A DNA stretch of 29,972 nucleotides from a virus. A program made the position numbers and the translations under genes. The notes beneath the pieces are model-generated. The model made no database searches. It was not told where the DNA came from and saw only the letters and a program-made list of their open reading frames with translations. Every line of letters starts with the position of its first letter. Position 1 is the stretch's first letter. The stretch lies in the IMG/VR virus record IMGVR_UViG_3300020438_000175, positions 1 to 29,972 of that record; one strand, given 5' to 3'. This document shows, piece after piece, positions 7,925-27,565 of this stretch.

Positions 7925-10723
7925 ATGTCAACATTAAGAGTAGACAAAATTAAAGCTCGTACTGGTACGACAGTCACAATACCAGATTCTCAGAACCTTT
8001 CAGTATCAGGGGCATTAACCGTTACAGGTACGCAAACCTTTGCAGCTGGTTCATCATTGAGTCTTCAAGGTGAAAATCTTAACTCTGGTACAAGAGGACA
8101 GATCCTTTATTACGATTCTACGGGAAAAATTGCTAAACTATCCGTTGGTTCTTCGGGTGCTGTTATTCAGTCTGATGGTACTGATGTTTCTTGGGGTAAC
8201 ATTGGTGGTGCTCCAAACATCTATTACGTTTCTACTAATGGTGTAGATGCTGCTGGTCGTGGTGGATCTATTGACGCTGCATTCAAGACTATTAAGTATG
8301 CTTGTGGTGCTATTGGTACTCCTACTGCAACTGCTCCTGCTGTTATTTACATTAAGGGTGGTGTTTATGAGGAAGTTCAACTTCCAATTATTGTTCCACC
8401 ATATACAAGTGTTGCTGGTGACACATTAAGATCTACGATTGTTAAACCTAAGACTGGAGAAACTGACTCTGGTGGTTCTACACTTAATGTTAACTCAACT
8501 CTATTCCGTTGTAGTAATGGTACTATTCTTCAAGACATGGTTCTTGATGGTATGACTGGGTATACACCAGGAAACCCTGCTCATGCTCCAGAGAGTGCAA
8601 CTGTTAAAGGTACTTACTTTGCATTGAACTCTGCAAGTGCTATTACCGACAAATCTCCATACATCTATAATATAACATCATTTGGTGATGGTGCTACTGG
8701 TGCTGTAATTGATGGATCATTACATGGTAGTGGTCATAAGAGTATATTGTTCCACACCTACACTGCTATTCATAGTGATGGTTGTGGTATTTGGGCTCAT
8801 AGTAATGGTGTTGGAGAACTTATTTCCGTATTTACATACTATTGTCAAGTAGGTATTGCTGGTTCAAGTGGAGCAACTATGAGAGTTCTAAACTCTAGTT
8901 GTTCTTATGGTGAGTATGGTGTATATGCTGGTGGATTTGATGCATCAGAAACTACTAATAACGGTCAGGTTATTGGTACGATGCTTGCTTACACCAATGT
9001 TCTTTCTACAGACTTTCAGCCTGGTGAGCAAATAACTGGTGGTACTTCTAATGCAACTGCATATGTTATTAATATACAGTCAGAACCGAAAAGACTTTAT
9101 ATTGTTCAAAAATCTGGAACATTCCAAGCTGGTGAAGTTGTAACTGGAACTACATCTGGTGCTACAGCAACACTAGACTCTGGTGGTTCATTTGAGGTTA
9201 ATCAGACTGGTAGAATTCTAGTCACTACCTTTACTAATGCTCCTGTTGCTGGAGATGCATTACAGTTTGCTACAACTGATGGTAATGCATATCAGGTTCA
9301 GAGTGTCAGTCAAGTAACAGGAGGTAGTGTTGATTATAATGTAATTGTATTTGCTACATCAAGGGCAACTGCTGTTCCTGCTACTACAGTTGTTAATTGC
9401 AGAAAGAAATTTAGTCTTGTCCGATTAACTGGTCACGACTTTATGCAAGTTGGTACTGGTGATAGAACAACAACTAATTGGCCAGATAGTCCAACTCAAG
9501 CAGCAGATCCAGCTGATCAGATTGTTACTAATACCACAGACCCAGGACGTGTTTATCACGTGTCAACGGATGAAATGGGTAACTTCTATGTTGGTGAGTA
9601 CTTCAAGGTAGATCAGGCAACTGGTAAAGTTACTCTTGATGCTTCTGCTTTTGACCTGAAAGGTCTTGAGTCATTACAACTAGGTTCTGTTGGTGGTTTG
9701 ATTGGTGCTCAGATTAATGAGTTCTCAACAGACACTACATTATCACAGGATTCTAATGATAAGGTTCCTACACAGAAAGCTGTTAAGACATACGTTGATG
9801 CTCAAATAACTTTACAGGATCTTGACTTTACTGGTGATAGTGGAACTGGTGCTATTGATTTAGATTCAGCAGCATTAGCAATTGTTGGTACATCAAATGA
9901 AATTGAAACTGCTGCTAGTGGAACTACAGTTACAGTTGGTCTTCCTACTAACGTAACGGTTGGAAATGACTTAACTGTAACAAATACTTTAGGAGTAGGT
10001 GGTAACTTAACAGTAACAGGCAACTTCACCGTTAATGGAACCACAACAACAGTTGCTACAACTAACACAACAATTGCTGATAATCTAATAGAATTAAACA
10101 GTGGTGCTGGTTCAAACGCTAACGACTGTGGTATTCTAGTTGAAAGAGGATCTACAGGTGATAATGCTATTATCGCTTGGGATGAAAGTTCCGATGCTTG
10201 GTTCTTTGGTACAACTGATGCTACCAATACTTCTACTGGTAACTTAAACCTTACAGCACAACCTATTGTATGTGGTAATGTTACTGCTCTTGATGTATCC
10301 ACTACTCGTTTAATAACGAATGAGGTTATTGAGAAATGTAATATTGATACTGGCGGTGGAGTAACTAGTACTGTAGCTGTTAATTTGAAAGATTATGCAT
10401 TAAATTACTATGATACAGACAGTGCTGGTAACTGGACTTTCAATGCAAGAGGTGATGGATCAACTACATTAAATGCACTTCTAACAGATAATGATAGTCT
10501 TACCTTCACTTGTATCATAGATCATGGTGGTACTGCTCATTATATGAGTGGATTCCAGATTGACGGATCTGATGTATATTCATCAGTTCATTGGGCTGGT
10601 GGATCTGCACCTGAAGCAACTGATGCTAAAGCAAATGGAACTAGTGTTTATACATTTACCATAATTAAGAGAAGTTCTGGTAACTATAAAATTCTAGGTA
10701 ACTTCAGTGCATTTGAAGACTAA
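7925..10723 (+). CDS. Beta-helix tail fibre/tailspike-like structural protein, 932 aa
   Basis: N-terminus MSTLRVDKIKARTGTTVTIP is a typical virion-attachment start of marine T4-like fibres. From about residue 98 (IYYVSTNGVDAAGRGGSIDA, AAFKTIKYACGAIG, YIKGGVYEEVQLPIIVPP) the sequence reads as a pectin-lyase-type right-handed beta-helix with capping strand, continuing to about residue 340. Around residues 500-625 follows a conserved segment (RLTGHDFMQVGTGDRTTTNW, GRVYHVSTDEMGNFYVGEYF, KVPTQKAVKTYVDAQ), then short TVTGNFTVNGTTTT repeats, an ILVERGSTGDNAIIAWDES module and a C-terminal beta domain (VYTFTIIKRSSGNYKILGNF). The same order recurs in the 1582-aa gene, so the two are paralogues. Beta-helix spikes often bind or cut surface polysaccharide; I see no catalytic residues I could assign, so enzymatic activity is open. 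Confidence 0.86.
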   Translation: MSTLRVDKIKARTGTTVTIPDSQNLSVSGALTVTGTQTFAAGSSLSLQGENLNSGTRGQILYYDSTGKIAKLSVGSSGAVIQSDGTDVSWGNIGGAPNIYYVSTNGVDAAGRGGSIDAAFKTIKYACGAIGTPTATAPAVIYIKGGVYEEVQLPIIVPPYTSVAGDTLRSTIVKPKTGETDSGGSTLNVNSTLFRCSNGTILQDMVLDGMTGYTPGNPAHAPESATVKGTYFALNSASAITDKSPYIYNITSFGDGATGAVIDGSLHGSGHKSILFHTYTAIHSDGCGIWAHSNGVGELISVFTYYCQVGIAGSSGATMRVLNSSCSYGEYGVYAGGFDASETTNNGQVIGTMLAYTNVLSTDFQPGEQITGGTSNATAYVINIQSEPKRLYIVQKSGTFQAGEVVTGTTSGATATLDSGGSFEVNQTGRILVTTFTNAPVAGDALQFATTDGNAYQVQSVSQVTGGSVDYNVIVFATSRATAVPATTVVNCRKKFSLVRLTGHDFMQVGTGDRTTTNWPDSPTQAADPADQIVTNTTDPGRVYHVSTDEMGNFYVGEYFKVDQATGKVTLDASAFDLKGLESLQLGSVGGLIGAQINEFSTDTTLSQDSNDKVPTQKAVKTYVDAQITLQDLDFTGDSGTGAIDLDSAALAIVGTSNEIETAASGTTVTVGLPTNVTVGNDLTVTNTLGVGGNLTVTGNFTVNGTTTTVATTNTTIADNLIELNSGAGSNANDCGILVERGSTGDNAIIAWDESSDAWFFGTTDATNTSTGNLNLTAQPIVCGNVTALDVSTTRLITNEVIEKCNIDTGGGVTSTVAVNLKDYALNYYDTDSAGNWTFNARGDGSTTLNALLTDNDSLTFTCIIDHGGTAHYMSGFQIDGSDVYSSVHWAGGSAPEATDAKANGTSVYTFTIIKRSSGNYKILGNFSAFED

Positions 10724-11672: not shown

Positions 11673-12008
11673 ATGGCAGCGATTCCTCTAAACTTATTGC
11701 TGGAAAAGGGAACCGATTGGGACGCTACCTTTAACATCCAGAATGAAGATAACACAACACCACTAAATCTGACTGGTTATACAGCAGAAGCTAAGATGAA
11801 GAAGAGTTATTACTCTACTGCATCTACTAGTTTTGTTGTCACATTTGTGGATCGTTATAATGGACAGTTAAAAATTGGATTGGCTAATGCTGCAACTGCT
11901 GCATTAGAAGCAAGACGGTATGTATATGATATTATATTAACATCTCCACAAAGTATTAAAACACGAGTCATAGAAGGTATTCTTGAAGTAACACCAGGGG
12001 TTACCTGA
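11673..12008 (+). CDS. BppU-N-like baseplate/fibre attachment protein, 111 aa
   Basis: Sequence MAAIPLNLLLEKGTDWDATF with LNLTGYTAEAKMKKS, then a TFVDRYNGQLKIGLAN strand pair and ARRYVYDIIL ends in VIEGILEVTPGVT. This arrangement (ligand-free start, 'linear TGY..A.mr', a 'G.l.l.l....t..l..g.yvyDi' hairpin, 'r.l.G.i.v.p.vT') is that of the small Ig-like beta domain found at the N-terminus of lactococcal baseplate protein BppU and of many phage baseplate proteins; the match is by pattern. It would be an adaptor joining fibres to the baseplate. The stop overlaps the next ATG (TGATG), so it is probably translated together with the 241-aa fibre protein. Confidence 0.78.
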   Translation: MAAIPLNLLLEKGTDWDATFNIQNEDNTTPLNLTGYTAEAKMKKSYYSTASTSFVVTFVDRYNGQLKIGLANAATAALEARRYVYDIILTSPQSIKTRVIEGILEVTPGVT

Positions 12009-12733
12009 TGCCAAATTATAATGTATCAGTAAAGTCTTCTAATTATCAGGTTCTATCAGAACCTCAGAAGAAATACAATGTTGGGGTTAACTATGAGATC
12101 CCCAGTAAGTATCTTCAGTATGGTAATGAGATACTCAATGTATCAAGTTGGGTATTCAATGGAACCAATACTGGGTTTCCATTAATTGATAATGCTGGTG
12201 ACGCATATACACCAGTTAATGATCAGCAATTGATTGTTGCTGTTGATGGATTAGTACAAGTTCCAGGTATTGATTACAGTACTAGTGGGACTAATATAAT
12301 TTTTACTACTGCTCCTACATCAGGACAGAAAGTATATGTTGTAGCATTATCTACAACTGCGGATTTAACAAGGACAATTAACTTTGTTGTTGATGCTGGT
12401 TCTTCACCAATGTCTTCTGGTGTTAAAGGGGATATGACTCTTGATGTTTCAGGAAAAATTGAATCCTGGACAATTATAGGAGATCAATCTGCTCAATGTC
12501 AGTTTGATATCAAGAAAGTTGATTATGCCAATTTTCCAAATTTTTCATCTATATGTGGTACAGAGAAACCTACTCTAGGTAATATTGGAGGAGGCACTAC
12601 ACAACGTATAAATCAAAATACCACACTCTCTACTTGGAATACAGCATTAACCGCTGGAGACATTCTACAATTTGAAATTGTATATGCTATAAATATACAG
12701 AGGTGCGTAGTTTCTATGAAGCTAGCACTTTAA
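12008..12733 (+). CDS. Tail fibre protein, 241 aa, with widespread C-terminal fibre domain
   Basis: Starts at the ATG overlapping the previous stop (MPNYNVSVKSSNYQVLSEPQ). Residues ~45-115 (NGTNTGFPLIDNAGDAYTP, QQLIVAVDGLVQVPGIDYST, then IIFTTAPTSGQKVYVVAL) are the fibre-connecting beta domain seen in many podo- and myovirus fibres. Residues ~135-241 (SGVKGDMTLDVSGKIESWTI, then DQSAQCQFDIKKVDYANFP, EKPTL, TLSTWNTALTAGDILQFEI) are the C-terminal domain shared by many phage fibre proteins, probably a trimeric receptor-binding tip. Coupling to the BppU-N-like gene suggests that the two form an adaptor-plus-fibre pair. Two late-promoter-like elements for the next gene lie in its last 50 nt. Confidence 0.84.
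   Translation: MPNYNVSVKSSNYQVLSEPQKKYNVGVNYEIPSKYLQYGNEILNVSSWVFNGTNTGFPLIDNAGDAYTPVNDQQLIVAVDGLVQVPGIDYSTSGTNIIFTTAPTSGQKVYVVALSTTADLTRTINFVVDAGSSPMSSGVKGDMTLDVSGKIESWTIIGDQSAQCQFDIKKVDYANFPNFSSICGTEKPTLGNIGGGTTQRINQNTTLSTWNTALTAGDILQFEIVYAINIQRCVVSMKLAL
12688..12695 (+). promoter_or_regulatory. T4-type late promoter TATAAATA near gene end
   Basis: Exact late promoter core inside the last codons of the 241-aa gene, 84 nt upstream of the ATG at 12780. A second candidate (12732) lies closer, so this gene may have tandem late promoters. Confidence 0.55.
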
Positions 12734-12779: not shown

Positions 12780-14231
12780 ATGGCACTGCTAGTTACCGAC
12801 CAGGGTGAGATTGATTCACTCCGTACCTTATTAAACGCAACGCATCAGATTCCAAGGGATTTGGTATTGAAGCTCTATACTGGACCTTCAACAGCACCTT
12901 CAGAACAAGATGTTCCGTCTGCGACAAAATATTTTGAACCATTTGACGCTTCAAATAGTAGCGGATATGGTACTGCACCTAACACAGGATATGATAGTAT
13001 AACTAATGTTAGAACAGAGGAAGATCAGAAGTTCAATGAGAATTATGGTATACTTCTGAATGGTAATCGTTGGACAATTGCTACTACTACTTCTGGTCAA
13101 GGTATTGCAAAAACATTCGCTGGTACTACTGGTACATACCAGATTGTAGTTGATACCAATACTGATCTTAAGAAAGGAGACTATGTTACTGGTACTGGAA
13201 TTCCTGACAATACCTATGTTGTTGATATTGATGGTACTAATATTGAGATAAGTCAGAAGTTAACTGCTACGTCTAATGCTGGTACTAACTGTACATTTGC
13301 TGTTGGTAGAACAACTGCTTCTTATCCTGAGCAAATATTTACATTCTCTGGTGCTGCTGGTAATGTTTATGGTTATTATCTAGCACGTGCAAACAATATG
13401 CCTGTCACACTTCACGGAGTTGTTGATGGTGGTACATTAGCTGCTGCAACTAAAGTTGCTAAAGTAGAGTGTAAGGGAGTTATTGGTAATAAGTATATTA
13501 ACCTCAAAGACGTAGATGTTGATGGTGGAGCAGTTACTGCTGGTGCTGCTGATGGATATGCTATTACTATTACATCTAACGCAGCAAGTGTTAAGAAGGG
13601 TATGTTAGTTAAGAATGTTGCTAATGTTCCAACAGAAACACGTGTTGTTGGTGTAAGTGGAAATGTAGTTACTCTTGATAAACCAGTTACAGGTGGTGCT
13701 GCTTCTGGTACTGCTGCGTTTAGAACTAATGTTGCAGAAGATCTAACAATTGGTATGAAAGTATCTAAATTTGTTGATGCTTCTAATGCTGGTCCAGATG
13801 CGTTCCCTGCTGCTACAGTTATTGAAGGTATTGATTATGCAACTAAGAGTGGTGAGCAAGGACCAACAGTTTGGTTAAATAATGCACTTACAGATAACGT
13901 AGGTACTGCTAGTGATAACGATCAGGTTGATTTCAACTTTAGTGTTATGACAACAGATCCTAGTGGTTCTGCTGTTGATCACAATTTGAATCCTGGCGAT
14001 GTTATTTACATTGCTCAAGGTACTGCAAACGGACCTGATACTGCTGCTCATTACACAGTATTTGAGACTCCAACAAATAGTACATTTACTACAACACCTT
14101 CTCTACAAGGAACTGGAGATGCTACTTTATACTCAAGTATATTCTTTGCAGAACAGTTTACAAATGGTCCATACGCTATTCAAAACAGTGGAGACCAAAT
14201 TAAGGTTACTCTAAATGTCAGCCTAGACTGA
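12780..14231 (+). CDS. Virion structural protein, 483 aa, unknown position
   Basis: N-terminus MALLVTDQGEIDSLRTLLNA, then IPRDLVLKLYTG, and YEPFDASNSSGYG-like spacing (residues ~45-65) form a non-repetitive head domain. After about residue 100 the protein consists of beta-rich repeats of the type 'LKKGDYVTGTGIPDNTYVVD', 'VKKGMLVKNVANVPTETRVV' and 'LTIGMKVSKFVDA', each describing a short hairpin ladder and each followed by an I/VTLDKPVT- or IEISQKLT-like strand. The C-terminus (ESGDQIKVTLNVSLD-like) ends in a beta strand. It has its own late promoter candidates, a strong ribosome site and a terminator right after it, so it is set up as a highly expressed single-gene transcript. I think it is a major tail or decoration component; I cannot name it. 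Confidence 0.82.
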   Translation: MALLVTDQGEIDSLRTLLNATHQIPRDLVLKLYTGPSTAPSEQDVPSATKYFEPFDASNSSGYGTAPNTGYDSITNVRTEEDQKFNENYGILLNGNRWTIATTTSGQGIAKTFAGTTGTYQIVVDTNTDLKKGDYVTGTGIPDNTYVVDIDGTNIEISQKLTATSNAGTNCTFAVGRTTASYPEQIFTFSGAAGNVYGYYLARANNMPVTLHGVVDGGTLAAATKVAKVECKGVIGNKYINLKDVDVDGGAVTAGAADGYAITITSNAASVKKGMLVKNVANVPTETRVVGVSGNVVTLDKPVTGGAASGTAAFRTNVAEDLTIGMKVSKFVDASNAGPDAFPAATVIEGIDYATKSGEQGPTVWLNNALTDNVGTASDNDQVDFNFSVMTTDPSGSAVDHNLNPGDVIYIAQGTANGPDTAAHYTVFETPTNSTFTTTPSLQGTGDATLYSSIFFAEQFTNGPYAIQNSGDQIKVTLNVSLD

Positions 14232-14317: not shown

Positions 14318-17300
14318 ATGCAATACGCTTATACCTCAGAAAGTGGATCACGTATCATTTCCGATCACGGAAGTGATGCTTTAAACAGCCAATCTGACGA
14401 AAAGCAATTTAAACCTAGGTATTACAACAGTATTAAAATTGAAGATTTTGTATATGAGTCATGGCCACCTTTATTAAGATATGGTGGTGGAGCAAGTTAT
14501 GAATACTATGATTCACCTATAACGAGTATTGTATGTCAAGGTGGGATATGCATATATTCATATGAAGCTGGAAATAAATCAGAGACAGTTGGACAACATG
14601 GAGCAAGTACTCTTAGTTTCCTTGCTGCAAGAAGGATTTCATCATTCCAGACTAATATAGGAAGTCGCACTGAGATATTTAAGTTTGTAGGTGCAGCTGA
14701 AAGTAGAGGATATGTTTATGAACCTGATATTACTGAGGATTATAATGAACTTGATTATGGATTGATAACTTCTAATCATACAGCAACAATAGATAATGGA
14801 TTGGTAAGTCACACTGATGCTGTAACAATAACAAGTCATGGAAATATATTAGATGGATATAGAACAAGATTTGGATTTAAGAAGACAATTGGTGAGGCAC
14901 AAGCTAAGGCAACTAATGCATGGGTAGGATCTGGTAGAATATTATCTTGGGGTAGACAAACATCTCCAGCCATATATGGATATATTGTTGATGGTAAGGT
15001 CAAAGGTCTATCTGGTATTGCGGATGCCTCGTTCACCACCAATCGTCTTGGTGGTGGACTTACTCCGCTTGGTGGTACTGCAATTATTGGTATCACAGTT
15101 CACGTTCATGGTGATGGTAATCTTAGAAAATTTGGTGGTTCAGCAGAGTCTGCAACATGGAACCCTGATGAGAAGCAAATGCTCTTCTCGTTCACGGGTG
15201 GACTTACTTCTGAGAAGCATGTAGAATCTTACGCTGGTTCTGGTAGGATTAAGAACCTTGCTAAGGTTGAAGCAGAGAAAGGTACTTTTAATTATGTTGG
15301 TTCTGGTGAGTTTAAGTTAAGACCAAGGAAACCTTCAACACATAGATTATCACATCTTTCTAACTTCACATTAGAAGCTTCTACACCATACTGGCATGGT
15401 CTTGGTGATCCTAATGGACATTGGGGCAACACACAACAATTAGGTGCTGTTCAACTCAAGGAACTTACTGAGTGGTCACACGAGAAACACACTGACAATT
15501 ATAATCAAAGTTCTATTGTTGAATATGTAGAACGAGATTGGGGTTTTGTTCAAACTGAATGTTCAAATATTGGTACTATCTCAACATCTGGTGATGTATC
15601 GGGATCAGTATCAGAATGTACTATTAAGATTGATCAAGGAGTAACAGCGAGAGTTACTTCTGGTCAGAATTATCAAGTTGCGTTAGGTAGTAACTCTGCA
15701 ACTAACTTTATAGATTATGGATTAGTATCCGAAGGTCATAGTCCCTCAGAAGATTGGGGTTGGATACTTGATTGGGGTACTAAGTCTCCATACGGATTAT
15801 TCAGATTTGATCACTCTGCTGAAGCAAGTATCCAATTCATTCCTAATTGGGTTGGTAGAGGTGGTCTTAGAATATTTGGTGCTTCAGAAATTCCTCTTGA
15901 TGTTAGTGTTTATGGTGCTGGTACTCTATTCTCAATGGGTGGTGGTGCTGAGAGTAGTAGTACTTCTGAACAACGTGGAGGACTCACTTCTCTTAGTGGA
16001 TCTGCTATTGTTGGTATTACTGCGATTACCACTGGTTCTGGTTCACTCAAGAAATTTGGTGGTTCAGCAGAGTCTGCAACATTCAATCCACTTGAAAGGC
16101 AGATGCTCTTCTCCTTTACTGGTGGTATTACCAGTGAGAAGCATACAGAATCCTATGTTGGTTCTGGAAGACTAAGGAACTTTGCGAAGTTAGAAGCAGA
16201 AAGAGGAACATTTGATTATGTTGGTTCTGGTGGATTTAAGTTCCAACCAGAAAATGCTATAGAGAAAAATACTGATTGCTATAATCAAAGTTCAATAGTT
16301 GATTTTGCACGTGCTGATTATGGAACTGTTGTAGATCAAAATCCTACAACAACTATAGATTATGGTAATGTTGCTGATAGTGCCAATGCAACAATTGATT
16401 ATGGTTGGATATTAGGAGAGAGAAGTGATCTAAGAACACCATATGGTCTCTTCAAGATTCAGTCTACAACTGATGTTGTTGTCAAGAAACAATTCTCTTA
16501 TGTTGGAATTGAATCAGTAATAAAATTAAGTGGAGTAGCGAGAGTACCACTTGAAGCTTCTGCACATGGTAAGGGTCATATTTTTGTAACTGGTGGTGCA
16601 TCTGAATCTTCAGTAGTTACTTCTATTGGTTCTGGAATTGAAAGACTTTCTGGTAATGCTGTTATTGGAATAGGATTAAGATATATTGGTTCTGGTTCTC
16701 TTAGAAAACTTGGTGGTCTAGCAGAATCTATTACCTTCAATCCTGATGAGAAGCAAATGCTCTTCTCCTTCACAGGTGGATTGACTAGTGAGAAGCATGT
16801 AGAATCTTATGTTGGTTCTGGATTCCTTAGAAACTTTGCTAGTGTTGAGACTAGAGCAACATTTGATTATGTTGGTTCTGGTGGAATTAAACTTAGACCA
16901 AGAAAACCAGTACAGTATGAGTTAGAAGAACTTTCTAACTTCACACTTGATAACTATGCACTCCAGTATGACTTTATTGATCTTGGTGATATTGACTTCT
17001 ATAACGAAGCAAATACCAACCTTGGTTCTGTAAAACTCAAGTGGTTAACTCTTGAGCAATCACATGAGAAACACACTGAAGCATATAATAATTCTGCATG
17101 TGAAGATGCTGTAGATCTTGATTATGGTAATCTTGTTAATCAAAATCTAACCAATTGTGTAGCAACTAGTGGTGTTATTAATACTAACACTACTGCTACT
17201 AGTGGATGTATTAAGGTTGCTACTGGTACAACACTTGCTATTGCTCCAAGCAATACATACACAATTCCAAATCAGTTAACAACACCTTCTGTTACTGAAG

Positions 17301-19771
17301 ATTACGGACTTGTTTCAGAATCTAACGCACCAGAGCATAGAGATTATGGTTGGATACTTGGAACTCTTTCCAAGAAGTGTCCATATGGATACTCGGATAT
17401 TATTGGTGCTGCTAAGACTCACTTTGTTGAGAAAATCATTACTACTGGTTACTCAGTTAGTGGTAAGGCTGGTGTTAATATCTTTGGTTCTGCTGATACA
17501 TTCTGGACTCCTCCATATCACGGTAGAGGTCTTGGTAGAATTATTGGATTTGGTCATGAGTCCTTTACTCCTGCTACTGCAATTGGAGAAGGTATTCTCT
17601 TCTCAATGGGTGGTGGTGCTGAGTCTACTTCTGTTCTTGGATATGGTGGTGGACTCTTCAAGATTGGATCTCAAGGATATACACTATTCAGTCTACTTCA
17701 TCCAGGTTCTGGTCTTATCAGAGTTACTGGAACTGGTACAGAATCCTTTACTCCATCAACATATGTTGGTTCTGGATCTCTCAAGAAATTCAGTGGTGCA
17801 GCAGAATCTGCTACTTGGAATCCATTGGAAAGGCAGATGCTCTTCTCCTTTACTGGAGTTGGAACAGAAACCTTTACTGCAAATCCACCAGAGGAAGGAA
17901 CGCAAGTTCGTATTTCTGGAGATGCTTTCCCAATATTCTTTATACCCAAATATCCTGGATCTGGTCTTATCAAGATTTCTGGGGAGGGAGATACCGACAG
18001 AACAAGATCCTTTGTTGGTTCTGGATCACTCAAGAAATTCTCTGGTGCAGCAGAATCTCTTACCTTCAATCCAGAAGAGAAGCAACTTCTATTCTCCTTT
18101 ACAGGAACAGGAACCGAGAAAGTTACATTCAATCCTCCAGAGGAAGGAACCAATATACGTCTTCGTGGAGAAGCAGTTCCCAGAGCAACAATATCTCAAG
18201 TTGGAGATCTCAGGATTCCTGTATTTGGAGATGCTTTTGCGACAGCAACTTTACGTCATATTGGTTCTGGTTCACTCAAGAAATTCTCAGGTGCTGCCGA
18301 GAGTATTACATTCAACCCAGAAGAGAAGAGACTTCTATTCTCCTTTGCAGGAACAGGATCAGAACGTACATTCGTTGTTCCTCCAGAAGGTGATGGTGTA
18401 CTCTTTACATTCGGTGGTTCAACAACAACATCTGCTACTTCATATCAAAGTACTGGATTATTCAGGGTTGATGGATTCACTGACTTTACAAGATCTAGAG
18501 ACTTTATTGGATCTGGTTCACTTAAGAAATTCAGTGGTGCTGCTGAGTCTCTTACCTTCAATCCTGAAGAGAAGCAAATGCTCTTCTCCTTTACAGGAGC
18601 AGGATCGGAACGTACATTTGTTGTTCCTCCAGAAGGCGATGGAAGAATTTCAATATATCCAGAAGCATCAGATTACAGATTCACACCTAACTGGAATTCT
18701 GTTGGTGGAATCAGAATTGATAATGAAGCTGCTTATAGATTTGCTCCTGTATGGATTGGTTCTGGTTCACTTAAGAAATTCAATGGTGCTGCTGAATCTC
18801 TTACCGTTAACCCACTTGAGAAGCAACTTCTATTCTCCTTTGTTGGTGAAAGGATTGCAGAGAAGAGAACTTCTAGAGAAATCAGTAAGGGTGGAACTCT
18901 TAGACTTGGTAATGATGCACATATTGTTTGGGTTCCAAATAATATTGGTTCTGGTACTATCTTCGTCAGTGGAACTGCTAAGACTCATTATGTTCCACAC
19001 ATTACTGGATCTGGTTCACTTTATAACTTCTCTGGTGCAGCTGAATCTAAATCTGTTGATATTACTACACTTCCAGCTCTGTTTAGAGTTTATGGTGATG
19101 GTGGTATTAGTCGCACCAGACCTTACATTGGATCTGGATCACTCAAGAAATTCCAAGGTGCAGCAGAATCTATTACCATCAACCCAGACGAGAAGCAAAT
19201 GCTCTTCTCCTTCTTGGGTCAAGGTACAACTACAAGAACAAGAAGCGAATCTGGTCAGGGTACAGTCAAGACACTTGGAGAATCTACAGTTCGGTTCTCT
19301 CCTGTATACTTTGGTTCAGGTACAGCAAGAGTTTCTGGCGAAGCAACTGTTACCAGAGCGAGAGACTTTGTTGGATTTGGTTCACTCAGAAAACTTTCAG
19401 GGGCAGCAGAATCTCTTACCTTCAATCCAGAAGAGAAGCAAATGCTCTTCTCCTTCCTTGGTGTTGGAGCAGAAAGCAGAACTTCAAGAGAACTCAGTCA
19501 GAGTGGAGTACTTACAGTCAGAGGAACTTCGGGAGATCCACTTCTTACATTTGCGGAACAACCAAGAGTTGAAATTGATATCACAGGAGATAGTTATGAT
19601 CTCCGTGCTCATGCATACCAAGGTTCTGGTAGAATTTCTAATGTCAATAATGCTGATGACGCATATGTACGTGCTCCATATAAGGGAAGTGGAAGAATTG
19701 CCCTTGCTGGTATCGCATTAGTACAAGTTCAGCTCTTCCAGCCACCTCATACTCAAGTCTGGATTATTTAA
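14318..19771 (+). CDS. Giant beta-repeat virion structural protein, 1817 aa
   Basis: No enzymatic domain is visible; the protein is almost wholly repeats. The base unit is about 20 residues, pattern xGSGxLxxxGxAxxxxxxxx (for example GSGLIKISGEGDTDRTRSFV). Four units make an 82-83-residue super-repeat carrying a signature that begins GSGSLKKFSGAAES and continues to EEKQMLFSFTG. Signature copies begin at residues 265, 573, 791, 1151, 1234, 1316, 1398, 1481, 1564 (degenerate), 1605 and 1686. The front half contains three larger modules with EKHTxxYNxS, EDYGWIL and PYGLF phrases. The first ~250 residues have a more varied head (MQYAYTSESGSRIISDHGSD). A long rigid appendage or tail-associated fibre is inferred. 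Proteins like this in marine T4-like phages have, as I recall, been labelled VrlC-like. The start lies just after a terminator with only a weak TAGG ribosome site. Confidence 0.87.
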   Translation: MQYAYTSESGSRIISDHGSDALNSQSDEKQFKPRYYNSIKIEDFVYESWPPLLRYGGGASYEYYDSPITSIVCQGGICIYSYEAGNKSETVGQHGASTLSFLAARRISSFQTNIGSRTEIFKFVGAAESRGYVYEPDITEDYNELDYGLITSNHTATIDNGLVSHTDAVTITSHGNILDGYRTRFGFKKTIGEAQAKATNAWVGSGRILSWGRQTSPAIYGYIVDGKVKGLSGIADASFTTNRLGGGLTPLGGTAIIGITVHVHGDGNLRKFGGSAESATWNPDEKQMLFSFTGGLTSEKHVESYAGSGRIKNLAKVEAEKGTFNYVGSGEFKLRPRKPSTHRLSHLSNFTLEASTPYWHGLGDPNGHWGNTQQLGAVQLKELTEWSHEKHTDNYNQSSIVEYVERDWGFVQTECSNIGTISTSGDVSGSVSECTIKIDQGVTARVTSGQNYQVALGSNSATNFIDYGLVSEGHSPSEDWGWILDWGTKSPYGLFRFDHSAEASIQFIPNWVGRGGLRIFGASEIPLDVSVYGAGTLFSMGGGAESSSTSEQRGGLTSLSGSAIVGITAITTGSGSLKKFGGSAESATFNPLERQMLFSFTGGITSEKHTESYVGSGRLRNFAKLEAERGTFDYVGSGGFKFQPENAIEKNTDCYNQSSIVDFARADYGTVVDQNPTTTIDYGNVADSANATIDYGWILGERSDLRTPYGLFKIQSTTDVVVKKQFSYVGIESVIKLSGVARVPLEASAHGKGHIFVTGGASESSVVTSIGSGIERLSGNAVIGIGLRYIGSGSLRKLGGLAESITFNPDEKQMLFSFTGGLTSEKHVESYVGSGFLRNFASVETRATFDYVGSGGIKLRPRKPVQYELEELSNFTLDNYALQYDFIDLGDIDFYNEANTNLGSVKLKWLTLEQSHEKHTEAYNNSACEDAVDLDYGNLVNQNLTNCVATSGVINTNTTATSGCIKVATGTTLAIAPSNTYTIPNQLTTPSVTEDYGLVSESNAPEHRDYGWILGTLSKKCPYGYSDIIGAAKTHFVEKIITTGYSVSGKAGVNIFGSADTFWTPPYHGRGLGRIIGFGHESFTPATAIGEGILFSMGGGAESTSVLGYGGGLFKIGSQGYTLFSLLHPGSGLIRVTGTGTESFTPSTYVGSGSLKKFSGAAESATWNPLERQMLFSFTGVGTETFTANPPEEGTQVRISGDAFPIFFIPKYPGSGLIKISGEGDTDRTRSFVGSGSLKKFSGAAESLTFNPEEKQLLFSFTGTGTEKVTFNPPEEGTNIRLRGEAVPRATISQVGDLRIPVFGDAFATATLRHIGSGSLKKFSGAAESITFNPEEKRLLFSFAGTGSERTFVVPPEGDGVLFTFGGSTTTSATSYQSTGLFRVDGFTDFTRSRDFIGSGSLKKFSGAAESLTFNPEEKQMLFSFTGAGSERTFVVPPEGDGRISIYPEASDYRFTPNWNSVGGIRIDNEAAYRFAPVWIGSGSLKKFNGAAESLTVNPLEKQLLFSFVGERIAEKRTSREISKGGTLRLGNDAHIVWVPNNIGSGTIFVSGTAKTHYVPHITGSGSLYNFSGAAESKSVDITTLPALFRVYGDGGISRTRPYIGSGSLKKFQGAAESITINPDEKQMLFSFLGQGTTTRTRSESGQGTVKTLGESTVRFSPVYFGSGTARVSGEATVTRARDFVGFGSLRKLSGAAESLTFNPEEKQMLFSFLGVGAESRTSRELSQSGVLTVRGTSGDPLLTFAEQPRVEIDITGDSYDLRAHAYQGSGRISNVNNADDAYVRAPYKGSGRIALAGIALVQVQLFQPPHTQVWII
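15110..19462 (+). repeat. Eleven copies of a 90-nt coding signature; near-regular 246-249 nt spacing at the 3' end
   Basis: Copies of the block coding for the GSGSLKKF...FSFTG signature start at 15110, 16034, 16688, 17768, 18017, 18263, 18509, 18758, 19007, 19130 and 19373. Intervals are 924, 654, 1080, 249, 246, 246, 249, 249, 123 and 243 nt. The copy at 19007 keeps only its first half (GSGSLYNFSGAAES), and the interval after it is half a period. Several copies share long identical stretches around the codons for LKKF and for LFSF. Confidence 0.9.
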
Positions 19772-19808: not shown

Positions 19809-20270
19809 ATGACCACCCAAGTACAATTTAGAAAGGGTACTACCACAGAACACGCTCAGTTTACTGGTGCTAATGCTGAAATTACAGTTGACACCAAGAA
19901 GAAAACTGCTGTTGTTCATGATGGTACTGATATTGGAGGATATGAACTTCAACGAGCACGATGGGAACATCTAAATTCTAATCAACAACTTGTTTGTGGA
20001 CTTAGATATTTAATAGACACCTCATCTTCTGCTTTGTCTTTAACAATGCCTTATGAAGCTTCAGGTGTAGTTCCTCATGTAGGAGATATGATTGAATTGG
20101 TTGATATGAAATCAACTTGGGCAATAAATAATGTTACTTTAACTACTAGTAGCAGCACTATTAAATTTTTAAATCAATTTGGGAATACTGATCACGAATT
20201 CATTCTTGATATAGCTGGCATGTATACTCAATTTGTTTGGGACGGAACTTACTGGAGGATTTTAATGTAA
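19809..20270 (+). CDS. Mtd_N-like virion protein, 153 aa
   Basis: Residues 4-40 (VQFRKGTTTEHAQFTGANAE, then ITVDTKKKTAVVHDGTD) match the short N-terminal beta domain named after the Bordetella phage major tropism determinant (Mtd_N: RxGTxxxxAxFTGAxGEITVDTxKxxxxVHDGxT). It is common at the start of tail fibres, where it anchors the protein to the virion. The remaining 110 residues (YLIDTSSSALSLTMPYEAS, VGDMIELVDMKSTWAINNV, a closing FVWDGTYWRIL) are a beta domain found after many phage fibre anchors. Here the anchor is a separate 153-aa gene. It lies behind a late promoter candidate and is coupled to the next gene by TAATG. Confidence 0.84.
   Translation: MTTQVQFRKGTTTEHAQFTGANAEITVDTKKKTAVVHDGTDIGGYELQRARWEHLNSNQQLVCGLRYLIDTSSSALSLTMPYEASGVVPHVGDMIELVDMKSTWAINNVTLTTSSSTIKFLNQFGNTDHEFILDIAGMYTQFVWDGTYWRILM
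20254..20258 (+). promoter_or_regulatory. Ribosome binding site GGAGG deciding the start at 20270
   Basis: A strong Shine-Dalgarno 11 nt before the ATG at 20270, inside the end of the 153-aa gene. It favours that start over an in-frame alternative at 20237, which has no such site. Confidence 0.75.
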
Positions 20271-20635
20271 TGGCTTTACATCTTAGTTCAAGTAGCGGAA
20301 CAGTTGGGCAAACTGTAGCTCAATCAAACGACTTTACAGTTCATGCTCTGAGAAGAGACAAGGATGGTATGTTGCATTATACAAAGGCAAGATCTACAGA
20401 AGATGAAGTCTTTGATTTTCATCGTGAAGATGGTGAAGAGTATCCAGATTTTCTTCAAGGAACAGAATATGTCCTTGCTGACGCAGGTGACAAAAAGTAT
20501 TCAAATGACACTGATGATAAATACCAACAGTTCAGATTTGATTTCAGGAATTTGACTTATTTTATTGATGATAATGGTTACTTAGTCGGAAGACTAAATA
20601 AAACATATGATCACACAACTAACGGACCTAAGTAG
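20270..20635 (+). CDS. Conserved-type fibre-cluster protein, 121 aa, unknown function
   Basis: I choose the ATG at 20270 (MALHLSSSSGTVGQTVAQSN): it overlaps the previous stop as TAATG and has GGAGG upstream. The in-frame upstream start at 20237 would only add eleven residues shared with the previous gene. The sequence has a Ser-rich opening, then VHALRRDKDGMLHYTKARST, EDGEEYPDFLQGTEYV and RFDFRNLTYFIDDNGYLVGR. It has no cysteines, no membrane segment and no catalytic motif. Its place between an Mtd_N-like protein and a 1582-aa fibre implies a structural or assembly role; nothing more can be said from sequence. Confidence 0.75.
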   Translation: MALHLSSSSGTVGQTVAQSNDFTVHALRRDKDGMLHYTKARSTEDEVFDFHREDGEEYPDFLQGTEYVLADAGDKKYSNDTDDKYQQFRFDFRNLTYFIDDNGYLVGRLNKTYDHTTNGPK

Positions 20636-20647
20636 GGATTTTTAAAA

Positions 20648-23600
20648 ATGGCAGATTTTAGACTCGGCAGACTGAAGTTTAAGTGGCAAGGCAATTGGAC
20701 TGCTTCCACTGCTTACGTCATTGACGATATCGTTAAGTATGGTGGAAACTCATACGTTTGTACAACAAACCATACATCAACAACAGCAGAAACATCTTTT
20801 TATTCTTCTGATAATGCTAAATGGTCTGTTCACACAGAAGGCATTGTCAATAAAGGAGATTGGGCTGCCTCTACTTGGTACAAAATAAATGATGTTTTCA
20901 AGTATGGTAATACACAATATCGTGTTACTGCTGGATTTACATCTGCTGCTACTTTTTCCGATTCAAATACTACAGTTTACTTAGAAGGTCTTAAGTATGA
21001 AGATACTTGGACTGCCAGTACAACATATCAGGTTGGTGACATTGTAACTTATGGTGGTTATAGTTATTCTGCCAAAACTAATCATAGTTCTGCTACTGTT
21101 CCAAATTCAGATGCTACTAACTGGGCAGTTTTATCAGTTGGTTTTGAAGCAAAAGGAGCATATGCTGCTGGCACAACATACAAACTTGGTGATGTAGTTA
21201 GATATGGTGGTAACAGTTACGTAAATATATTAGTTGCTGCTGCTGGAACCGATCCTACAAATACTTCTAACTGGAAACTTCTTGCCGAAGGATTTAATTG
21301 GACTGGAAACTGGGCTGCTGGAACTGCATACAAATTAAATGATGTTGTTAACCGAACTTCAAACTCTTATGTTTGTGTTCAAGCTCATACAGGACAACAA
21401 CCAGAAACTGATACTGGTGGAGTATATTGGAATTACATAGCACAGGGTGGTTCTGCTGCTCAGGTGTTGACCACAACTGGTGACATGCTTTATCAGTCTG
21501 CTGGTACAATTGCTAGATTGGGACTTCCAGCATCAGCAACTGGTACTGTTGAAGAACAAAAAGGTGCTAGTGGTCAAGTATTGACAGTTGGTGGTTCTCC
21601 ACTTTTACCACAGTGGGAAAATAATAATACATCTGCACCTGTTTATTATGTTACTAAAGAGGGTTCTAATTCAAATAGTGGTAAGCAAATTTCAAGAGGA
21701 TTTGCTACTTTAAGATATGCTTGTGATCAAGTATCTGCATTAACAGGAGCAGCAAAACCTACTGCAACAAATCCAATTACAATCTATGTAAAATCTGGTA
21801 TTTACGAAGAGCAACTTCCTATTCATGTTCCTGAGTTTACTTCAGTAATCGGTGATAACATAAGATCTACATCATTTACACCTGCATCAGGTGATTCTGA
21901 TGAGTTGGATTTAGTATTCCAAACTGCTGCAACTCATGTTAAATTGGGTGACGTAGTTAGTAACTCAGCAAAGACAAAAACTGCTAAGGTAATGAAGCAT
22001 AGTACAGGTACTACCCTGACGCTTCTTCCTGTAACAGGTGGTGTATGGACTACTAGCGATAAGTATGTTGATATTATCAACAATAAATATGCAGATGGTA
22101 GAGATGTATTAAACAACAACAGAGTTTTCCTTGCTCATGAAGCGTATCATCGTCATGTTGCAAATGTAGGTGCTGTAACTGGTGCTGCGGGAGGAGTTAA
22201 AGATCAATTAACAGCTTTTGTTGATGCACTTGCTTTTAACCTAAAGCATGGAAGTAATAACGAAGTTTGGGATTTTACTAATTCTGTTCTTAGTGGAACT
22301 GATATTACTGGAGACGTTACTCAAGATAACCAATTAATTGAATATGTTAGAGATGCTGCAAATACAATATTAGCAGGTGGAACAGCAACAGTATCTGCTG
22401 GTAATAGCGAAACTCAAACTGCTTATAGTGGAACAGCAGATACTAATAATCCTAAGTGTCCTAATGTTACTTCTGCTGTAACAACTCTTGCAGCGATATT
22501 TACTTCTTGTAGGACTGCTAATAATATGGGTGGTACTTCTAAGAGTGAACCATTCATAGACATCACAACAGTATCTACTGTTTCAAATATCCATTCAACA
22601 TTCATATATCTTGCTGATCATACTATCGTTAAAGATTGTGTGTTTAACGGATTAGCAGGTTTTGCAGCTAATGGTGCTGACGACAAAAATATAGAAGCTG
22701 CTGTTATTAAGGGTGTATACTTTGAACTTGATCCTGCTTCAGCAGTTACCAAGTCACCTTATATTCAAAACTGTTCTGCATTAGGTGGTGCTGCACTTGG
22801 TGTATTATGTGATGGTGACTCTCATGTACACTTTGACAACTCTCCTACCCCATCCTTCAAGTCAATGTGCTTTGACGCATTCACGCAGGTTCTAGAGGGC
22901 GGTGCAGGGTTCTGGTGTAAGGGTACAGCAGCGATGGAAATCGTATCATCCTTCACTTATTATCATCACATGTCTTATTGCTCCACTGGTGGTGGTAAGA
23001 TTCGTGCTGTATCTGGTAACTCATCTTACGGTAAGTACGGTTGTATTTCTAGAGGATTTGATCCTAATGAGGTAACTACCGATGGTACGATTGCTGGTTT
23101 ACGTCTTAATATTAATGCATCTGGATCAAGTGCTGGTACATTCACAGACTTTGAAAGAATCCAAGGTAATACATCAGGTGCTGTTGGACAATTAAGAAGT
23201 AATCAAATACTTGAAGCAAATTATCTTAATTACATACCAATTAAAGGTACATTCCAAGATGGTGAAGTAATTCAAGGTATTGGTTCTACTGTTCCTAATA
23301 TTACTGCTAGTGGTGCAACAGTAACTCTTAAAGCATCTAATGCTGTTACTGGTCAGTATGGATATCAACTTATTGCTGAAGGATTAGCACTTGCTCCAGA
23401 CCAAGGTGGATCTGTTGAGTATGTTGACAATGGTTCAACTAATGATTCTAGTTCTTATGTTATTTCAAGTGCTAGTTATGGAGCACCAGATGGAAGAGGT
23501 TCTCTAACAGTAACCAGAGGATCATTAGGATCTAGTGCTGCTGTTCATTCTGGTACTGATACTGTTGCATTGTTCCCTGTTACAGCAGCTACAGGTACTA

Positions 23601-25396
23601 CATTGACTGCTGGTATTGATGCTAGTGTTACTAGTATTGATCTTAGTGTTCTTACTGGTGTTGCACAGAACGGATTCGTTGTTGTTGACAATGAATTGAT
23701 GATAATCACTGGTGTTACAGACGCAGATACAATTACTGTTACTCGTGCTCAAGAAGGTACATCTGCTGCTACACATGCTAATGGTGCTGCTGTTACAGTT
23801 CTTGGTGCTAAAGTTGCTTCTCAGGATACACTCCTTAAAGATACAACTGATGTCACTACTGATATTCGTGTAACTCAGGGTGGTATTATATTTAAGGCAG
23901 GAGATTATGCTAAGATTAATAATGAGTTTATGCTATTGAGTGCTGCGGCTGCAGATACAACTGGTATTACGATTATTAACTTTGCTGACGAGAAAGCAAG
24001 TTCTGCTGCTGCTGGTGCTGACCAGTTATTCAAGATTCGTTTCAGATATTCTCAGGTTCGCTTAACTGCTCATGACTTCCTAGACGTTGGTACAGGAGAC
24101 AGGTCAACAACTAACTGGCCTGGACTTCCATCCCAAGCGAATGTTCCTGCGAACGAAATTAATGAAGTTCGCCCAGGTCGTGTTTACTATGTTTCTACCG
24201 ACCAAGATGGTAACTTCGCCGTTGGTGAATACTTCAAGGTTGAACAGGCAACTGGTAAAGCAACATTGAATGCTAACGCATTTAATTTATCTGGTCTAGA
24301 CCAATTACAACTTGGTGCTATCGGTGCTACGTTGGGTGCTATGATTGATGAGTTCTCAATAGATGGAACTCTTGCACAAAATAGTGACGCTAAAGTTCCT
24401 ACACAGAAGGCTGTTAAGACTTATGTTGATGCTCAAATAGGTGGTGGTGGTGCTTCAACAACCATCAATACTGCTGGTGATACTGGTACAGGTAGTGTTG
24501 CTACTGGTACTCAAACCCTTAGTATTGTTGGTACAACAAATGAAATTGAAACACAAGCTGCTAGCCAAACAATTTATGTTAAACTTCCTGATGATGTAAC
24601 AGTTGGAAATAACTTAACTGTAACAAATGATTTAGCTATATCTGGTAATACAGTATTGACTGGTAACCTAACAGTTAACGGTACAACATCTACTGTTTCT
24701 ACAGCAAATACTACTGTTAGTGATAAATTACTTGAACTTGGAACTGGTACTACTGGTTCTCCAACTGGAGATATTGGTATTATCCTTGAAAGAGGAGATT
24801 CAAATAACGCCTTTATCGGGTGGGATGAGTCAGCAGACAAGTTTACATTAGCTACTACAACTGCAACTGGTTCTTCTGCTGGAGATCTAACACTCACAAC
24901 AGGAACACTTGTTGCAAACATAGAAGGTAATGTAACTGGTGATGTAACTGGTAATGTAACTGGTAATTTAACTGGTAACGTAACTGGTAATGCTACTGGA
25001 TTAAGTTCAACACCAAACATTTCTGTTGGTACAATAGCATGTGGTAATATCACTGGTACTGGAACTGTTAGTGATAGTATGGGTGATGTAAGGAAACTTC
25101 TAGTAAGATCAGTCTCTAGTGCTTATACCTTAGTTATTGGAGATAGCGGTAGATTTGTTGATACAACTGGTGCTGCGACAGTCACGGTTCCGAATGGAGT
25201 CTTTTCTGCTGGTCAAATGGTGACCATTTTGAACAACAGTGGTAGTGATATGACACTCGCTCAGGGTGGTGGATTCTCACTCTATAATGGAGCTGATGGA
25301 TCAACAGGTAACAAAATAATGGGAGCTAGATCAACAGCGACTATACTATTCCAAGGTAGTGCTAATGGATATCTTTCTGGTTCAAAAATAAGTTAA
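20648..25396 (+). CDS. Giant tail fibre with five carbohydrate-binding-type repeats and beta-helix, 1582 aa
   Basis: Residues 1-275 are five copies of a ~50-residue module 'GNWTASTAYVIDDIVKYGGN-SYVC', each with conserved W, aromatic Y and D-V/I-V strand, of the CBM5/12-like chitin-binding type. From about residue 331 (VYYVTKEGSNSNSGKQISRG, GFATLRYACDQVSA, IYVKSGIYEEQLPIHVPEFT) a pectin-lyase-type beta-helix follows the paralogue at 7925, but residues ~480-650 hold an extra, partly helical insertion. Residues ~1138-1265 repeat the paralogue's RLTAHDFLDVGTGDRSTTNW, GRVYYVSTDQDGNFAVGEYF and VPTQKAVKTYVDAQ segment. Then come GNVT tandem repeats (residues ~1427-1450) and a C-terminal knob (VTVPNGVFSAGQMVTILNNS). 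It is likely a long host-recognition fibre. Base composition is locally higher in GC near 22860-22920. Confidence 0.87.
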   Translation: MADFRLGRLKFKWQGNWTASTAYVIDDIVKYGGNSYVCTTNHTSTTAETSFYSSDNAKWSVHTEGIVNKGDWAASTWYKINDVFKYGNTQYRVTAGFTSAATFSDSNTTVYLEGLKYEDTWTASTTYQVGDIVTYGGYSYSAKTNHSSATVPNSDATNWAVLSVGFEAKGAYAAGTTYKLGDVVRYGGNSYVNILVAAAGTDPTNTSNWKLLAEGFNWTGNWAAGTAYKLNDVVNRTSNSYVCVQAHTGQQPETDTGGVYWNYIAQGGSAAQVLTTTGDMLYQSAGTIARLGLPASATGTVEEQKGASGQVLTVGGSPLLPQWENNNTSAPVYYVTKEGSNSNSGKQISRGFATLRYACDQVSALTGAAKPTATNPITIYVKSGIYEEQLPIHVPEFTSVIGDNIRSTSFTPASGDSDELDLVFQTAATHVKLGDVVSNSAKTKTAKVMKHSTGTTLTLLPVTGGVWTTSDKYVDIINNKYADGRDVLNNNRVFLAHEAYHRHVANVGAVTGAAGGVKDQLTAFVDALAFNLKHGSNNEVWDFTNSVLSGTDITGDVTQDNQLIEYVRDAANTILAGGTATVSAGNSETQTAYSGTADTNNPKCPNVTSAVTTLAAIFTSCRTANNMGGTSKSEPFIDITTVSTVSNIHSTFIYLADHTIVKDCVFNGLAGFAANGADDKNIEAAVIKGVYFELDPASAVTKSPYIQNCSALGGAALGVLCDGDSHVHFDNSPTPSFKSMCFDAFTQVLEGGAGFWCKGTAAMEIVSSFTYYHHMSYCSTGGGKIRAVSGNSSYGKYGCISRGFDPNEVTTDGTIAGLRLNINASGSSAGTFTDFERIQGNTSGAVGQLRSNQILEANYLNYIPIKGTFQDGEVIQGIGSTVPNITASGATVTLKASNAVTGQYGYQLIAEGLALAPDQGGSVEYVDNGSTNDSSSYVISSASYGAPDGRGSLTVTRGSLGSSAAVHSGTDTVALFPVTAATGTTLTAGIDASVTSIDLSVLTGVAQNGFVVVDNELMIITGVTDADTITVTRAQEGTSAATHANGAAVTVLGAKVASQDTLLKDTTDVTTDIRVTQGGIIFKAGDYAKINNEFMLLSAAAADTTGITIINFADEKASSAAAGADQLFKIRFRYSQVRLTAHDFLDVGTGDRSTTNWPGLPSQANVPANEINEVRPGRVYYVSTDQDGNFAVGEYFKVEQATGKATLNANAFNLSGLDQLQLGAIGATLGAMIDEFSIDGTLAQNSDAKVPTQKAVKTYVDAQIGGGGASTTINTAGDTGTGSVATGTQTLSIVGTTNEIETQAASQTIYVKLPDDVTVGNNLTVTNDLAISGNTVLTGNLTVNGTTSTVSTANTTVSDKLLELGTGTTGSPTGDIGIILERGDSNNAFIGWDESADKFTLATTTATGSSAGDLTLTTGTLVANIEGNVTGDVTGNVTGNLTGNVTGNATGLSSTPNISVGTIACGNITGTGTVSDSMGDVRKLLVRSVSSAYTLVIGDSGRFVDTTGAATVTVPNGVFSAGQMVTILNNSGSDMTLAQGGGFSLYNGADGSTGNKIMGARSTATILFQGSANGYLSGSKIS
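20669..21450 (+). repeat. Five tandem CBM5/12-like protein modules
   Basis: Each ~50-residue unit has the pattern W-x-A-x-T-x-Y-x-(I/L)-x-D-(I/V)-(V/F)-x-Y-G, then a S-Y strand, and a closing N-W-x-(V/L) strand. Units begin near GNWTASTAY, GDWAASTWY, DTWTASTTY, GAYAAGTTY and GNWAAGTAY. The units are diverged at the DNA level, so the array looks old and protein-selected. Confidence 0.85.
24926..24997 (+). repeat. Tandem 12-nt repeat, six units (GNVT)
   Basis: Six consecutive 12-nt units, first GGTAATGTAACT, encode GNVT, GDVT, GNVT, GNLT, GNVT and GNAT. Differences between units are single bases except the last. Such an in-frame array can gain or lose units by slippage without breaking the fibre. 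Confidence 0.92.
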
Positions 25397-26749: not shown

Positions 26750-27565
26750 ATGGCCGAGCCTGCCAGTAGAGCTCAACTAAAAGATTATTGTCTTAGAAAG
26801 TTGGGTTTCCCAGTCCTTGAGATCAATGTAGATGACGATCAGATTGAGGACTCAATTGATGATGCTCTTCAGTATTATCGTATGAGACATTATGATGGTG
26901 TTGAACTTGCTTACATGAAGCATTTGTTTACTGCTGCTGATGAAGCAAAATTTGATAGTCAAGAGACTACAACCACTGTTGGTAGTGGTGCAACTGCTAT
27001 AGAATGGAAGGTTAAAGATAGATATCTTACTCTTCCTGCTGATGTAGTTGGTGTATCTAAGGTATGGGGTCTTGCTAGTAATGCTGTTAGGAACAACTTA
27101 TTTGGTATTGAGTATCAGATTTTTTTGAATGATTTATATGCTGTAGGTTCTCTTGACTTCCTTAACTATTATATGGTTAAGACTTGGATGGAAAGTATGG
27201 ACATGATATTGAATAATGGTTCTTTTGTTCAATTTAGATTTAATATGAGACAAGATAGACTTTACATTGATGTGGGTAAGGACATGCTTGATGAAGATGT
27301 CCATGTCATTGTTGAATGTCATAGAGCATTGGATCCAGATACATTCACACAAGTTTATAGTGATGTCTTTTTAAAGAAATACACTACTGCTCTTATTAAA
27401 AGACAGTGGGGTCAGAACCTAATTAAGTTTAATGGTATTCAACTTCCTGGTGGAGTTGCCATTAATGGTAGAGAAATCTTTGAAGATGCTCAGAAAGAAA
27501 TTGCTGAGATTGAAGAGATGTCAACTACTACATATGAATTGCCACCATTTGACATGATCGGATGA
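26750..27565 (+). CDS. 13: gp13 neck protein
   Basis: T4 gp13 homologue, 271 residues (T4 gp13 is about 309). It helps finish the filled head by joining the portal vertex to the tail. Recognised from the N-terminus (RAQLKDYCLRKLGFPVLEIN, then VDDDQIEDSIDDALQYYRMR), the KDRYLTLPADVVGVSKVWGL segment, and the C-terminal ALIKRQWGQNLIKFNGIQLP and ELPPFDMIG motifs, plus its place directly before gp14 and gp15. The first codons (MAEPASRAQLKDYC) follow a promoter and a hairpin over the ribosome site. Its stop overlaps the gp14 start (ATGA), implying coupling. Confidence 0.93.
   Translation: MAEPASRAQLKDYCLRKLGFPVLEINVDDDQIEDSIDDALQYYRMRHYDGVELAYMKHLFTAADEAKFDSQETTTTVGSGATAIEWKVKDRYLTLPADVVGVSKVWGLASNAVRNNLFGIEYQIFLNDLYAVGSLDFLNYYMVKTWMESMDMILNNGSFVQFRFNMRQDRLYIDVGKDMLDEDVHVIVECHRALDPDTFTQVYSDVFLKKYTTALIKRQWGQNLIKFNGIQLPGGVAINGREIFEDAQKEIAEIEEMSTTTYELPPFDMIG

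Follow-up and report, generated by a model that had tools for sequence, protein, structure and literature searches.

Introduction

T4-like cyanophages are abundant viruses of the ocean, and their marine representatives have been reported to be without wac, g10, g11, g12, g34, g35 and g37, so that the whisker and the short and long tail fibre genes of T4 are among those missing (PMC2984593). Because these genes are missing, unrecognised fibre proteins are to be expected in marine T4-like cyanophages. Virion proteomes have been described for S-SM1, S-PM2 and Syn9 (PMC3037559), and our literature search found no paper on S-SCSM2 or on a solved fibre of a T4-like marine cyanophage.

Here, we describe a giant repeat protein encoded in the tail fibre cluster of such a phage. 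As regards its proposed role, it resembles the T4 long tail fibre (gp34-gp37), also a long host-adsorption shaft in a T4-like virion, but it has no detectable homology to these proteins, and its only PHROG match is PHROG 11522. As regards gene position, P-SSM2 carries a tail spike with an S74 chaperone (PSSM2_298) in the place of the giant gene, two genes before PSSM2_300; however, the family profile finds no sequence relation between the two proteins, and the C-terminal S74 chaperone of PSSM2_298 is absent from ours. As regards construction, adenovirus-type shafts and the choline-binding, RHS/YD and filamentous-haemagglutinin repeats likewise consist of many copies of a short beta-rich unit of similar size, whereas none of the corresponding Pfam families appeared in scans of our protein or its relatives. 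The protein family itself is already catalogued as PHROG 11522, without function; what is new here is the anatomy of the protein, its leader hairpin, and a connection with the fibres that marine T4-like phages are reported to be missing (PMC2984593).

Results

The 29,972-nt stretch that we analyzed (IMG/VR record IMGVR_UViG_3300020438_000175, hereafter the window) is, judging from its sequence, a fragment of an uncultured T4-like cyanophage (Kyanoviridae). It carries neck and tail genes of the Kyanoviridae type in their usual order, with homologues of the head-tail adaptor, head closure and sheath-stabiliser proteins at 26750-29771, and its gp14/gp15 show a 73% nucleotide match to Syn1 and S-RIM44. 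Wherever PHROG names a function for a plus-strand gene, it is that of a tail-fibre, tail, virion-structural or neck gene. The giant gene, its leader and its neighbours are listed in Table 1. The fibre cluster also includes a 1225-aa open reading frame without PHROG match (3008-6685, plus strand). Both large fibre proteins (7925-10723 and 20648-25396, plus strand) match PHROG 9851, so the window probably carries two paralogous fibres; the gene of the second contains a 12-nt tandem repeat (GGTAATGTAACT, 5.6 copies) at 24926-24992.

Table 1. The giant gene, its internal organization and its surroundings, in window coordinates
Feature	Position	Strand	Basis
111-aa protein of the L-shaped tail-fibre assembly family (PHROG 1084/3304; weak LtfC)	11673..12008	+	
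241-aa virion structural protein, PHROG 10330	12008..12733	+	
483-aa protein, PHROG 10467, directly upstream of the giant gene	12780..14231	+	
Terminator-like hairpin and T run, ending 23 nt before the giant-gene start codon	14272..14294	+	
Giant repeat protein, 1817 aa, PHROG 11522 family	14318..19771	+	open frame; PHROG 11522 E 2.9e-157; 60 units by profile
N-terminal short array 1, residues about 225-360, 6 recognised units	14990..15397	+	unit profile
Non-unit linker, DYG/DWG ... PYG type, about 130 residues	15398..15787	+	
N-terminal short array 2, residues about 491-635, 7 units	15788..16222	+	unit profile
Non-unit linker, DYG ... PYG type, about 72 residues	16223..16438	+	
N-terminal short array 3, residues about 708-853, 7 units	16439..16876	+	unit profile, self-comparison, relatives
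Non-unit linker, DYG ... PYG type, about 168 residues	16877..17380	+	
C-terminal array, 37 units of 19-22 residues without a break (anchors 1057-1798)	17462..19744	+	self-comparison, unit profile
Conserved last residues PHTQVWII	19745..19768	+	most conserved block of the giant protein
153-aa protein, Mtd_N and T4 gp9/gp10-N-like stretch, PHROG 9648 tail protein, directly downstream	19809..20270	+	
132-aa protein, PHROG 8997	20237..20635	+	
1582-aa tail fibre protein, PHROG 9851, five CBM_5_12 carbohydrate-binding stretches	20648..25396	+	

The frame of the giant gene is open across all of its 1817 codons, and its product is assembled from about 60 modules, each a unit of 20-21 residues. A first-pass annotation had proposed a ~20-residue unit with a super-period of 82-83 residues, and both periods are recovered by ungapped self-comparison, in which no trained model is involved: lag peaks stand at 20 (z 10.7), 41 (z 6.1), 82 (z 8.1) and 83 residues (z 10.8) over the whole protein, and at 20 (z 11.6), 41 (z 5.9), 82 (z 9.2) and 83 residues (z 18.6) over residues 1071-1817. 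A position-specific profile of the unit, approximately x-G-x-[LI]-[FI]-x-[FILV]-S-G-x-A-E-x(4)-[TF]-[TV]-x-P-x(2-4), recognises 60 copies with a chain score of 916, against 8.4 +/- 6.2 in 100 shuffles; as this profile was refined on 78 family members, the window protein among them, the lag analysis is the cleaner test of periodicity. The profile finds the unit in no other open reading frame of the window (next best chain score 10.3), and the step between neighbouring units is nearly always 19-22 residues throughout the family.

In the C-terminal array, four units make up a super-unit of 82-83 residues, composed of a constant pair followed by a variable pair. The nearly constant pair, GSGSLKKFSGAAESxTFNPEEKQMLFSFTG, opens at every fourth unit, and mean identity between copies is 69% in the first half of the super-unit and 32% in the second. 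The signature GSGSLxx[FL] starts at residues 1151, 1234, 1316, 1398, 1481, 1564, 1605 and 1686, that is at steps of 83, 82, 82, 83, 83, 41 and 81 codons, which reproduces exactly the spacing first noticed in the DNA (249, 246, 246, 249, 249, 123 and 243 nt) and includes one half step of 41 residues at 1564-1605. The repeat copies are old at the DNA level, since a DNA tandem-repeat finder reported no repeat in the giant gene and the constant pairs are 68% identical in DNA and 57% at third codon positions. Each copy in close relatives is nearest to the window copy of the same rank, a pattern that is gone in distant relatives.

The N-terminal half is organized differently. The unit had been noted to run through most of the protein, and a superhelix, with a continuous beta-solenoid or stacked-hairpin rod many tens of nanometres long, had been suggested; the units cover about two thirds of the chain, and the N-terminal half is segmented into blocks of about 7 units separated by non-unit linkers of 70-170 residues, which contradicts a single rod in this part. 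The third linker partly resembles the first, and array 3 starts 218 residues after array 2; three relatives (L008, L010 and L030) are without a 218-residue segment.

The PHROG 11522 profile matches most of the giant protein in 10 stretches. Two scans of viral contigs yielded 63 and 79 loci, with many contigs common to both, and members of at least 1370 residues contain 26 to 85 recognised units. The differences between relatives amount to whole units or entire blocks. Close relatives differ in length by 42, 81 or 218 residues, and many C-terminal runs count 37, 33, 29 or 25 units, i.e. one super-unit apart, in agreement with the earlier suggestion that the array expands and contracts in whole units. 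Cultured carriers are the Kyanoviridae S-CAM1 and S-CAM3 and the more distant S-SSM7, Sf-FS3 and S-SCSM2R, in whose records the protein is called hypothetical or 'TolB'. The S-CAM1 (AOV57604.1, 2130 aa) and S-CAM3 (AOV59077.1, 2558 aa) proteins share PHROG 11522, the unit, the cassette and the ..WII ending with the window protein but differ in the number of units and linkers and in inserted domains, and have no recorded function or structure. Those of S-SSM7 (SSSM7_110), Sf-FS3 (SfFS3_93) and S-SCSM2R (SSCSM2R_111, 'TolB') occupy the same position in the cassette and match the family profile at E 1e-42 to 1e-55, but have fewer recognisable units (26-33). In bacterial genomes, the sole match lies on a 9.3-kb contig of a Synechococcus MAG (NZED01000059.1, our L143), which is probably a phage contig binned into the MAG.

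Globular domains of adhesion type are inserted into the protein in some lineages. The S-SCSM2R protein (L066:14704-18813) has inserted FG-GAP repeats (E 4.9e-43), which probably explain its 'TolB' annotation, and another relative (L032:7470-14447) has a Reelin_subrepeat-B stretch near the N-terminus (E 2.1e-8), a model matched in 9 of 32 N-terminal members. These inserts may represent side domains on a common scaffold. By eye, the S-CAM3 relative (L067:14995-22671, 2558 aa) also has a seemingly duplicated non-unit domain of ~170 residues, at residues ~190-360 and 1330-1500.

Concerning the fold, the initial impression that no named family fits is upheld: sequence and profile searches of the PDB with the giant protein gave no significant match, NCBIfam none, and the weak Pfam matches obtained (DUF2807, CBM_35 and others, E 1e-4 to 1) were judged to be chance matches to repetitive beta sequence. 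Pfam scans also revealed no S74 (endosialidase-type) chaperone or other known fibre domain inside the protein. Mean hydrophobicity and beta propensity per unit position point to two short strands, and each unit may thus form a strand-turn-strand, with a GxLxxF-S-G-x-A turn followed by a Thr/Val/Phe-rich strand, the units stacking along the fibre axis. Assuming that the 60 units are solenoid coils at 0.48 nm, the array would be about 29 nm long; assuming stacked hairpins at about 1 nm each, about 60 nm. A superhelix, a beta-solenoid and stacked hairpins would all be candidate geometries. Coevolution over 2520 three-unit windows (mean-field, Neff 576) and 2686 two-unit windows (pseudolikelihood, Neff 696) gave neither a clear hairpin nor i+20/21 stacking, loop alignment noise being dominant in both.

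The super-unit could alternatively correspond to one ordinary globular, Ig-like beta-sandwich domain, of which many phage structural proteins contain tandem copies; the 20-residue signal would then be no more than the rhythm of its strand pairs. Eighty-two residues is indeed a usual size for an Ig-like domain, and the lengths of the C-terminal runs mostly differ by four units. However, one profile fits all four sub-units, and steps of 41-42 residues exist, both within the window protein and as length differences between relatives, making tandem Ig-like domains the less likely explanation; moreover, the N-terminal blocks of 7-8 units are not always multiples of four, and Pfam Ig families are unmatched in all 38 relatives. 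We therefore regard this arrangement as distinctly improbable.

AlphaFold models of the monomer have a mean pLDDT of 25.5 for the C-terminal part (38 sequences) and 27.9 for the N-terminal part (32 sequences). Such low confidence for a single chain would fit an obligate oligomer, although shallow alignments also give low-confidence predictions. The chains might form a trimeric interlocked shaft comparable to triple beta-spirals and other phage shafts, an arrangement that is compatible with an adsorption-fibre shaft and rivals only a single-chain rod. Phage fibre shafts are mostly trimers, and the Mtd_N-type neighbour is kin to trimeric receptor-binding proteins; against this, shaft families of Pfam and the PDB are unmatched by sequence, and the unit has 20-21 residues instead of the 15 of the adenovirus-type triple spiral. 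We consider a trimer to have a little less than an even chance.

The giant gene, located between fibre and neck genes, belongs to a cassette whose order is fixed. With re-fetched contigs included, the gene next upstream encodes a homologue of the 483-aa protein in 86 of 87 loci, and the gene next downstream a homologue of the Mtd_N-like 153-aa protein in 135 of 135. The order is kept in cultured S-CAM1, S-CAM3, S-SSM7 and Sf-FS3, and also in S-SCSM2R, there without a separate 153-aa gene. The S-SCSM2R relative of the 483-aa protein is annotated as 'tail fiber rope protein', the 153-aa protein matches Mtd_N (E 1.9e-11) and a gp9/gp10-N-like stretch (E 1.5e-4, below the curated cut-off), and the 132-aa protein is 54% identical to PSSM2_300 of P-SSM2.

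This stretch of genes leads into the neck genes gp13, gp14 and gp15, the downstream 153-aa protein is annotated as 'putative hoc protein' in S-CAM1, and the whisker gene wac is among those reported missing (PMC2984593). The giant protein could accordingly be a head or neck decoration or a collar appendage (Hoc- or whisker-like) and not a fibre of the tail tip or baseplate. However, the genes flanking it on each side have their matches in tail-fibre, tail-fibre-assembly and Mtd_N/gp9-10-like families, and the counterpart position in P-SSM2 is held by the S74 tail spike, so that we find a head or neck location unlikely.

The only strong intergenic hairpin on the plus strand of the window, a ten-pair stem followed by a T run, precedes the giant gene. 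Of 47 distinct loci, 46 have a comparable hairpin and T run upstream of the first ATG, at a distance of 13 to 54 nt; the 47th, S-SSM7, has a hairpin of other sequence (GGACTCTGC..GGCAGGGTCT) some 90 nt ahead of the annotated start. Seven pairs make up the consensus structure, with few two-sided changes; the stem is conserved in its very sequence, and covariation is therefore weak. Rfam has no match for this leader. The late-promoter motif TATAAATA occurs at three sites in the window, which equals chance expectation; none is near the start of the giant gene or between the hairpin and the start codon. One explanation is that partial read-through at the hairpin would lower the dose of the giant protein, making it a possible attenuator; another is that it may be a leader element influencing translation or the stability of the mRNA.

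Discussion

We propose that this T4-like marine cyanophage probably uses the giant protein as the shaft of a long fibre for host adsorption, or of an equivalent appendage of its tail. In favour of this reading are the periodicity, the two short strands suggested for the unit, the modular length changes, the fixed cassette among tail-fibre and other structural genes, the S74 tail spike at the corresponding place in P-SSM2, and the adhesion-type inserts of relatives. The earlier idea of an unusual phage appendage is plausible, judging by the gene context, from which we also infer a location in the virion. Our literature search found no virion proteomics for any phage carrying the gene, and S-SM1, S-PM2 and Syn9, whose virion proteomes are available (PMC3037559), are not among the sequence matches of the giant protein.

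Some observations count against a shaft. The single-chain models are of low confidence, coevolution gave neither stacking nor a clear hairpin, and the protein contains no S74 chaperone or other known fibre domain. Its conservation is a further point. Usual fibres have a conserved, virion-bound N-terminus and a variable C-terminal tip. The gradient is opposite here, as family conservation is about 0.23 at the N-terminus and reaches 0.78 over the last 17 residues, with an ending ..xVWII, ..YGWII, ..YVWMI or similar in nearly all complete members. Our guess is that the protein is joined to a conserved partner through its C-terminal end and exposes its N-terminal part.

If the giant protein is indeed a fibre shaft, a contact recurring every four units would lie in the constant pairs, which would touch another chain or a partner protein; exposure to the host or the solvent would fall to the variable pairs and the inserted domains. 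Fibre length would be tuned by recombination in whole units. The conserved ..VWII tip may join a partner encoded next door, e.g. the Mtd_N/gp9-10-like 153-aa protein, and the upstream 111-, 241- and 483-aa proteins may serve in assembly or attachment. Taken together, these features could define an undescribed shaft architecture, with a 20-21-residue beta unit, alternation of constant and variable pairs and length change in whole units; the conserved terminator-like hairpin ahead of its gene would fix how strongly it is expressed compared with the upstream fibre-assembly genes, and the protein would represent one of the missing long tail fibres of marine T4-like cyanophages. We put this full scenario forward tentatively, as a possibility that falls clearly short of probable.

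In several lineages of these abundant phages, the tail-fibre cluster encodes this large, syntenic repeat protein, a concrete candidate for a missing fibre. If the fold of its unit proves to be regular, it would add an evolvable shaft module to the known phage fibres, and may help in predicting host contact from environmental sequences.
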